Shown here one piece after another: positions 4,258-11,763 of a stretch of DNA of 37,463 nucleotides. Position numbers and translations under genes: made by a program. Position 1 is the stretch's first letter, and each line of letters opens with the position of its first letter. The stretch comes from an uncultured Planctomycetaceae bacterium (GTDB lineage: Bacteria; Planctomycetota; Planctomycetia; Planctomycetales; Planctomycetaceae), in NCBI GenBank assembly GCA_913031625.1, contig CAJWGB010000024.1, positions 1-37,463 of the forward strand. Direction: 5' to 3'. The notes beneath the pieces were generated by a model. That model did not search any database. It was given only the letters and a program-made list of their open reading frames with translations, and was not told the origin of the DNA.

Positions 4258-4400
4258 GAAGACGGACACACTCGGCCCCAAATGGTTACTCTCTGACACA
4301 CACCACGCGAACACCGAATTGGCTGGCATTTGTCGAAACCTTCACAATCATGTGGGGTTTGAGCAAGCGTCAATGCCACCCCGATTTGCCGGAACTCAAC

Positions 4401-5450
4401 ATGTCACAGGCTCTTTGTTTGCGCCCATTCTTAGTCCTTTTCCTGCTCGTGGTGCCGAGCACCACTCACAGGACGGTCGCTGCGGACAAACTGAAAGCCT
4501 CCGACATGCTCGATCCAAACCGGGTGCTGGAGATACGCCTTGAAATGCCGGAGGAGTCATGGGACAAACTCCGGCGACAGACGCGAGACGCATCCACAGC
4601 ATTCAACGGACTGCCCAATCGGAAGCCGTACACGTATGTGAAGGCGGACTTGTGGATCGGCGATCTGAAGGTCGAATCCGTCGGCGTTCGAAAGAAAGGA
4701 TTCTTTGGTTCGGCAGACACACGCCGCCCTTCGCTGAAGATCAAATTCGACGAGTATGTCGACCAGGATCCGGTGAGCGGTCTGAGTCGAATCACATTGA
4801 ACAACAACAAACAGGATCGGTCTCTGGCCAGTCAGTTTCTGACTTATCAGCTGTTTCGCCGGGCAGGCAACCCCGCGCCTCGTTCAAACTGGGCGCGCGT
4901 GACCGTCAACGGCAAAAGCCTTGGCGTGTACACTCATGTGGAGAGCGTCAGGAAACCATTTCTAAAACACAACTTCGAAAAGAAGTCCGGCAACCTTTAC
5001 GAAGGAACGCTCACCGACTTTCACCATTCGGCCGTGGAAAGTCTGGAAGCCAAAACCAACGAAGACGACAACGATCGATCGGACGCAGAATCCCTCGCAA
5101 AGCTGCTCAACGCTGACGGGCCGCTGAACGTCGAAGAACTCGAGAAGCAGATCGATCTACCTGCCTTCCTGCGGCATTGGGCGCTCGAAAGTCTGATCGG
5201 GTTCTGGGACGGGTACAGCAGCAATCAGAACAATTACTTCATCTATTTCCGACCATCGGATGGCAGAGGCGTCTTTATCCCATGGGGAGCAGACGCGTCC
5301 TTCACCAGCTGCACACCGTTCAGCTTCGGAATGCGTGAAGTGGGCCCCATCTATGCTCAGGCCGTTCTCGCCAACAGACTTTATCGCGCGGAAGGGATAC
5401 CGGATCGGTACCGCGAGACGATGCAGTCAATCCTGAACAGTCAATCCTGA
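4401..5450 (+). CDS. CotH-kinase family secreted protein, N-terminal part of a frameshifted gene
   Basis: The CotH-like (PF08757-type) portion, about 349 residues from ATG 4401, which begins a signal peptide (MSQALCLRPFLVLFLLVV); an in-frame ATG at 4350 would place 17 extra residues ahead of it. Recognisable CotH elements are the entry strand RLEMPEESWDKLRR, VGVRKKGFFG, the lysine-bearing RPSLKIKFDEY, LNNNKQDRSLASQ, the VNGKSLGVYTHVESV strand and GNLYEG. The helical second half follows (LESLIGFWDGYSSNQNN). The frame ends at TGA 5448-5450 inside a 14-bp tandem duplication. Removing one copy restores a continuous frame into the downstream EF-hand portion (stop 6392-6394), so the intact gene would encode about 659 residues. 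CotH homologues in spore coats are protein kinases; the role of planctomycete versions is unknown. Confidence 0.82.
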   Translation: MSQALCLRPFLVLFLLVVPSTTHRTVAADKLKASDMLDPNRVLEIRLEMPEESWDKLRRQTRDASTAFNGLPNRKPYTYVKADLWIGDLKVESVGVRKKGFFGSADTRRPSLKIKFDEYVDQDPVSGLSRITLNNNKQDRSLASQFLTYQLFRRAGNPAPRSNWARVTVNGKSLGVYTHVESVRKPFLKHNFEKKSGNLYEGTLTDFHHSAVESLEAKTNEDDNDRSDAESLAKLLNADGPLNVEELEKQIDLPAFLRHWALESLIGFWDGYSSNQNNYFIYFRPSDGRGVFIPWGADASFTSCTPFSFGMREVGPIYAQAVLANRLYRAEGIPDRYRETMQSILNSQS

Positions 5451-5451
5451 A
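5424..5451 (+). repeat. 14-bp perfect tandem duplication causing a frameshift
   Basis: CAGTCAATCCTGAA occurs twice without spacing, at 5424-5437 and 5438-5451. The duplication adds 14 bp, a non-multiple of three, and puts a TGA at 5448-5450 in the CotH frame. With one copy deleted the frame reads MQSILKEAFHEEHLLAEA and runs into the downstream open frame. Confidence 0.95.
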
Positions 5452-5551
5452 AGAAGCGTTCCATGAAGAGCACCTGCTGGCAGAAGCTGACCGCATCCAG
5501 AAACTCCTGAAACCCTATGTCGGCCCGAGCCAGGCAGACTATGTCAAAGGC

Positions 5552-6394
5552 ATGGATGAGATTCGTTCTTTTGTCCGGCGGCGACGGGCCTCAATCGAGA
5601 AAGCCCTGAAGGCCGACCGCCTTGAGATTCCGCGCGAACCACGTTCCCCGTCTTACCTCGTGGACGAGGGCAGATTAGCAGGTTCATTTTCAGTTCCATT
5701 CGACGGCGATGGAGAATCCACAGCGACATTCAAAGTGACGCTGGATGACTCCAAAATGAGTATCACGGGATCGACGGTGACGGCATCACTGAAGACGCCA
5801 TCACGTTCATGGTTTAACCGAGGCGGATCAGGGGATGAAACGCCGTCGGCGGAGAAGAACATCAGTCTGGTCATCAAAATGGAGCGTGATGGCAAAGAAC
5901 CGGTGACTGCATCGGTCACTCTTCACCGGCTTGATCTCGAAGATCCAATTGGGAAGACAATTGAGGTTTCCGGGACGTTTCGCGAAGGAGCTGCCCGCCG
6001 TTCCTTTGGGTTCGGCGGCGGATCATCGCAATATGTTATCGGCGATCTGACATTGAAAGAATTCGGCCTGAAATTCGGCCTGAATAAGGGGGATGTCATC
6101 AGCGGTGACATGAAGCTGCGGATAGTCCGATCTCGCGGCGGCTTTTTCGCACGTCGCGGAGAGGACAATCGACAGCCGTCTCAGGAGACGCAGGAGCCCG
6201 AAAAGCCCAAAGAACCAAACGTGTTCCTCCAGGCACTGACAATCACACGAGCACTCGATACAGACCGTGACCGCACAATCAGTGCCGAAGAGATTGAGCA
6301 GGCCTCAGACCGATTGAAGGCGCTTGATCTCAACAAAGACGGAAAACTCGACAGGGAGGAGATGGAAAACCTGTTCGGTACTCCTCGGAAATAG
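5552..6394 (+). CDS. C-terminal part of the split CotH gene, with paired EF-hands
   Basis: The downstream half of the CotH gene. The frame is open from just after the duplication at 5452, and residues before the nominal ATG at 5552 (KEAFHEEHLLAEADRIQKLL) are clearly coding, so 5552 is an internal methionine rather than a true start. After a helical segment comes a region of beta strands rich in D, T, S and G (about residues 40-220), then two EF-hand loops near the C-terminus: DTDRDRTISAEE and DLNKDGKLDREE, both with acidic residues at the calcium-ligand positions. Such C-terminal EF-hands are common on exported planctomycete proteins. If translated alone it would lack a signal peptide and the CotH core, so it is probably non-functional unless frame is restored. 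Confidence 0.75.
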   Translation: MDEIRSFVRRRRASIEKALKADRLEIPREPRSPSYLVDEGRLAGSFSVPFDGDGESTATFKVTLDDSKMSITGSTVTASLKTPSRSWFNRGGSGDETPSAEKNISLVIKMERDGKEPVTASVTLHRLDLEDPIGKTIEVSGTFREGAARRSFGFGGGSSQYVIGDLTLKEFGLKFGLNKGDVISGDMKLRIVRSRGGFFARRGEDNRQPSQETQEPEKPKEPNVFLQALTITRALDTDRDRTISAEEIEQASDRLKALDLNKDGKLDREEMENLFGTPRK

Positions 6395-6525: not shown

Positions 6526-6589
6526 GATTAGCCTAAGGCAACGAGGGCGCAGCCTTAGATTAGCCTAAGACAACCAGATCGCAGCTCAA
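6526..6589. repeat. Degenerate 32-bp tandem repeat with internal hairpin
   Basis: Two adjacent 32-bp units (6526-6557 and 6558-6589) both begin GATTAGCCTAAG and match at about 25 of 32 positions. The first can fold through TAAGGC (6534-6539) and GCCTTA (6552-6557). It lies in the convergent gap between the CotH gene and the MFS gene; no coding potential is seen there. Confidence 0.6.
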
Positions 6590-11593: not shown

Positions 11594-11763
11594 GCTTCTG
11601 TGAGCCGAAGGCCGTGAGGCCTCGGGTGAAACGCACCGTCCTGTCGCTCGTTGACACCCGAGGCTGACTGGAGCTTCTGTGAGCCGAGACGCGTGAGCGT
11701 CCGGGTGAAACGCACCGTCTTATCGCTCGTTGACACCCGAGGCCTCACGGCCTTCGGCTCACA
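11594..11763. repeat. Doubled REP-like palindromic element with a 30-bp perfect inverted repeat
   Basis: Two 71-bp direct units (11594-11664 and 11673-11743) share GCTTCTGTGAGCCGA at the left, GGGTGAAACGCACCGTC in the middle and CGCTCGTTGACACCCGAGGC at the right. Within each unit CGGGTG pairs with CACCCG. The left end of unit 1 (11599-11628) and the right end extending past unit 2 (11734-11763) are perfect reverse complements over 30 bp, so the whole can form one long cruciform. The arrangement recalls bacterial REP/BIME elements. No transposase is adjacent. Confidence 0.85.

Follow-up and report, generated by a model that had tools for sequence, protein, structure and literature searches.

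Short tandem duplications that arise within an open reading frame and inactivate its product are known from the pneumococcal capsule genes cap3A, cap8E/wchA and tts, in which both duplication and reversion have been observed (PMC4243769, PMC4022640); for a 9-bp duplication in the pneumococcal capsule, the expected reversion frequency is at most about 1e-5 (PMC4022640). In fission yeast, microhomology-mediated tandem duplications have been described in the ssp1 gene of S. pombe (PMC13207564). Among proteins of the CotH-kinase family, the reference for structure is Bacillus cereus CotH (5jd9/5jda), and in the CotH protein of B. subtilis residue D228 is required for activity (PMC7821199).

The locus considered here lies in a window of 37,463 nucleotides (the whole stretch of DNA that was analysed), which is contig 24 of a draft assembly of 444 contigs, 6.70 Mb and 96% completeness. 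As in the pneumococcal genes, a short tandem duplication within an open reading frame appears to inactivate the product, and in both cases loss of one copy of the exact repeat could in principle restore the gene; in the capsule genes the gain and the loss of the duplication were both seen to occur, whereas the window gene is represented by one static allele in a draft genome. The duplications in S. pombe ssp1 are likewise short, consist of two copies and lead to a premature stop, but they are microhomology-mediated, and the 14-bp unit in the window has no microhomology pair at its ends. The window protein resembles 5jd9 (phmmer E = 2.6e-7); unlike 5jd9/5jda, its subfamily has an additional beta-rich domain at the C-terminus, for which no PDB entry matched with confidence, and the window gene additionally carries an EF-hand tail. 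We consider it likely that an ordinary, recent 14-bp duplication broke a CotH-kinase-like gene. The main import of the locus is its correct annotation, the event being, as found, an ordinary loss-of-function mutation.

The 14-bp duplication and the reading frame

The unit CAGTCAATCCTGAA is present twice, head to tail, at positions 5424–5451, and the two copies are 100% identical, exactly as the first-pass annotation had placed them (5424–5437 and 5438–5451). Among 300 windows simulated with a first-order Markov model, none contained a perfect tandem duplication of 14 bp, which rules out a chance origin of the repeat. The features of the locus are the following:

4401–5450, forward strand: upstream fragment, with a signal peptide-like N-terminus and most of the CotH-kinase domain (Pfam PF08757, ORF)
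5424–5437, forward strand: 14-bp unit CAGTCAATCCTGAA, copy 1 (repeat found in the sequence)
5438–5451, forward strand: 14-bp unit, copy 2 (either of the two copies may be the newer)
5448–5450, forward strand: premature TGA, met by the CotH frame past the duplication (ORF)
5452–6154, forward strand: displaced remainder, which takes in the last part of the kinase C-lobe together with the beta-rich domain conserved at the C-terminus (homologues, class-wide search, L004 model)
6060–6084, forward strand: second tandem duplication, perfect and in-frame, 12 bp, AATTCGGCCTGA (TRF; alignment)
6155–6394, forward strand: EF-hand tail of about 80 residues (PF13405/PF00036; stop at 6392–6394)

Because the 14 added bases do not make up whole codons, the ribosome passes into another frame at the duplication and stops at the TGA at 5448–5450, the last residues of the CotH frame before it being ...RYRETMQSILNSQS. 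The upstream ORF, counted from the ATG at 4401, is 349 residues long and has the C-terminus NSQS*; an earlier in-frame ATG is found at 4350. The reading that continues downstream lies in the −1 frame; it is open between 5339 and 6394, with the ATG at 5552 as its first. It is the copy number of the unit, at present two, that sets the frame: when one copy is removed in silico, the CotH frame is joined to the downstream frame, as had been proposed, in a continuous reading of 659 residues over 4401–6394 that aligns without gaps to 17 homologues.

The overlap of about 110 bases between the upstream frame and the downstream −1 frame could suggest that both parts are still translated despite the duplication, by recoding or by re-initiation, and the overlap does contain one heptamer of the form X XXY YYZ, GGGCCCC at 5342. 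This heptamer, however, does not belong to an efficient slippery-site class, and recoding at 5342 would replace about 30 conserved residues that frame 0 encodes before the duplication, so that a programmed −1 frameshift at the sole candidate site would destroy conserved residues and was rejected. A +1 shift at the stop enters the wrong frame. Re-initiation was rejected as well, since the first usual downstream start, the ATG at 5552, lies midway through a conserved helix and is not preceded by a clear ribosome-binding site. Continued translation of both parts is thus very improbable, and the downstream ORF, which lacks a signal sequence and could be started only from a poor internal site, is most likely unexpressed.

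Homologues and the extent of the gene

The one-copy reading was aligned with 17 homologues, with 34–41% identity across the aligned part, from Planctomycetota, Verrucomicrobiota and one myxobacterium. Homologues L003–L005 come from congeneric draft genomes, and the other Planctomycetota include Mariniblastus and Rubripirellula; planctomycete and verrucomicrobial MAGs hold the closest named relatives of the gene. In all 17 homologues, a single open frame spans the junction with no gap at the joint, and the junction residues of the one-copy reading, RYRETMQSIL-KEAFHEEHLLAEADRIQKLL, align to each of them without gaps. In a class-wide search, in which each half was queried separately against a sample of 297 genomes, full-length homologues carried both halves in one open frame of 581–801 residues (1274 in G016).

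No split homologue was seen among the 17 aligned sequences and the 297 genomes of the class; a homologue that ends near residue 349 and is followed by a separate downstream gene, the arrangement that would have spoken for two genes, was likewise found in neither set. Since the homologues run through the junction in one frame, the two ORFs are parts of a single broken gene, and the first-pass view that a two-gene annotation is wrong was correct. ORFs of 349–366 and 280 residues are indeed present, as an ORF caller would list them, but every homologue is one gene, and we regard two truly separate genes as hardly credible; the single-frame homologues rule out their independence. Judged by the alignments, the ORF at 4401–5450 and the downstream frame are a single frameshifted CotH-kinase gene, and the annotation should give one such gene instead of two ORFs. 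The 14-bp unit was absent from all other loci fetched, and the comparison of neighbouring genes with the homologous loci gave no synteny matches.

The downstream frame had been described as an EF-hand frame, a name that fits its end and not its bulk. The EF-hand models PF13405 and PF00036 match only the last 50 or so residues of this frame, whereas the bulk of it is the conserved C-terminal part of the CotH subfamily: residues 346–580 of the one-copy reading comprise the end of the kinase lobe and the conserved beta-rich domain, and the homologues finish near residue 580. The EF-hand tail is absent from all 17 homologues, 16 of which end earlier; L005 has a different, longer extension in its place. 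Similar EF-hands are common in other planctomycete proteins. By these comparisons, the tail is an extra of the window gene, outside the conserved CotH subfamily. The second duplication, at 6060–6084, adds four residues, and in the alignment those four columns are gapped in every sequence but the window protein.

The kinase domain and the cost of the break

The upstream fragment matches PF08757 with E = 1.2e-37 and 130.6 bits over profile positions 4–266 of 322, and thus passes the gathering score (cut-off 23.8). The gene descends from the CotH-kinase family, and its present product is a fragment. The candidate catalytic Asp, in the motif WDGY, lies upstream of the break, is invariant in the homologues and aligns with the Asp of the FDG motif of 5jd9; from this alignment, it would be the counterpart of B. 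subtilis CotH D228.

The fold was considered on an AlphaFold2 model of homologue L004, made from 13 sequences and used in place of the one-copy reading (mean pLDDT 84). The model fits the CotH kinase 5jd9 across 384 columns with a TM of 0.80 by target; by contrast, the window copy is cut inside the C-lobe. In the model, the joint corresponds to L004 residues 366/367, within helix 352–368 of the kinase C-lobe, and the parts that would be lost past the break are the end of this helix, helices 372–389 and 397–419, and the beta domain at 435–584. The unbroken L004 has a complete kinase fold, and the window copy, with its frame broken in a C-lobe helix, does not. With the kinase lobe severed within a helix, the truncated product is presumably inactive.

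The proposed course of events is the following. The ancestral gene would have encoded a secreted CotH-kinase-like protein with a signal peptide, a kinase domain, a beta-rich domain and a lineage-specific EF-hand tail. A single recent tandem duplication of 14 bp would then have hit this planctomycete CotH-kinase gene, giving a frameshifted product of 349 residues from which the final helices of the kinase lobe and all later parts should be missing, and the downstream ORF would be the unexpressed remainder.

A separate observation concerns positions 5280–5310, where the first acidic residue of the PWDYD motif is replaced by Gly throughout the subfamily: 5jd9 has PWDYD where the window-gene subfamily has PWGxD. 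Going by the motif, this replacement possibly reflects a change in metal binding.

Age, origin and frequency of the duplication

Over its 313 codons, the downstream remainder is free of additional stops and frameshifts, and its codon-position G+C is still coding-like and resembles that of the neighbouring genes. On both grounds, the duplication is probably recent, and we take it to be real DNA; in the population sampled, the two-copy allele appears to be common, if not fixed.

The suggestion of a very recent slipped-strand mutation therefore stands as regards recency, which the intact remainder favours, and is weakened as regards simple slippage. There is no microhomology at the ends of the 14-bp unit, the matching run (14) being equal to the unit length (14), so both slippage between pre-existing repeats and microhomology-mediated duplication fit poorly. 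Ku-dependent end joining was rejected as the origin, since no Ku gene was found in the genome.

Perfect tandem duplications of 9–19 bp in frames of at least 250 codons were scanned in sampled stretches of the genome totalling 1.64 Mb. Multiples of three accounted for 45 of the 50 duplications found, some of which share one array; this excess is as expected if selection removes frame-breaking duplications. The other four duplications whose length is not a multiple of three are 10–13 bp long and lie at or beyond gene ends or near a start, one of them exactly where a ketosynthase gene (L121) ends. These four leave their genes whole, and a genome-wide habit of gene-splitting duplications was rejected; the 14-bp duplication is the sole perfect one that splits a gene, a one-off in the 1.64 Mb scanned. 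In the complete relative G005, 400 kb were sampled and showed a comparably low background of duplications.

The draft source of 444 contigs, together with the fact that the allele breaks a gene which is intact everywhere else, might point to an artefact of assembly or of strain mixture, in which case the living population would be one-copy and its gene intact. The window, however, contains no N, the duplication lies well inside a 37-kb contig, the 1.64 Mb show no pattern of like lesions, and the assembly holds no second allele. Moreover, de Bruijn assemblers do not produce a 14-bp duplication out of reads with one copy except where ends are joined and not merged; an assembly error at this place would be of an unusual kind. 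We therefore regard an artefact as unlikely.

Since exact adjacent repeats can drop a copy, the 14-bp repeat is in principle revertible, and the locus had also been read as a reversible on/off switch, in which copies of the unit come and go within the population and the CotH protein is phase-variable. The account of pneumococcal capsule loss in PMC4243769, where it cites Waite 2001 and 2003, documents reversible spontaneous duplications of this nature. We found no positive evidence for such a switch in the window gene, and consider it quite improbable: the unit is present in two copies only, its ends lack a microhomology that would promote repeated duplication, no homologue has repeats or a break at the equivalent place, and no second gene-splitting duplication was found in 1.64 Mb of the genome. 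Revertibility is common to any such duplication and is no sign of selection for switching, and the assembly shows one allele only, the search for a one-copy allele elsewhere in it having found none. We give little probability to the reading that the duplication switches the secreted kinase-like protein reversibly at low frequency, with cells of one copy and cells of two copies living side by side in the population sampled. If both alleles did coexist, the locus would represent phase variation of a secreted kinase-like protein beyond the usual pathogens.

Other repeats were noted in the window and in the genome. Just downstream of the broken gene, at 6526–6585, there are two imperfect copies of the 28-nt GATTAGCCTAAGGCAACGAGGGCGCAGC. 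In the same genome, a 20-bp perfect tandem duplication, TAGATAGCCGAAGGCAAAGG, is found at L061:7314, in an apparently intergenic position, and loosely resembles the GATTAGCCTAAGGCAA repeats at window position 6526. An intergenic tandem repeat at 11594–11743 has a 79-bp unit in 1.9 copies that are 89% alike.
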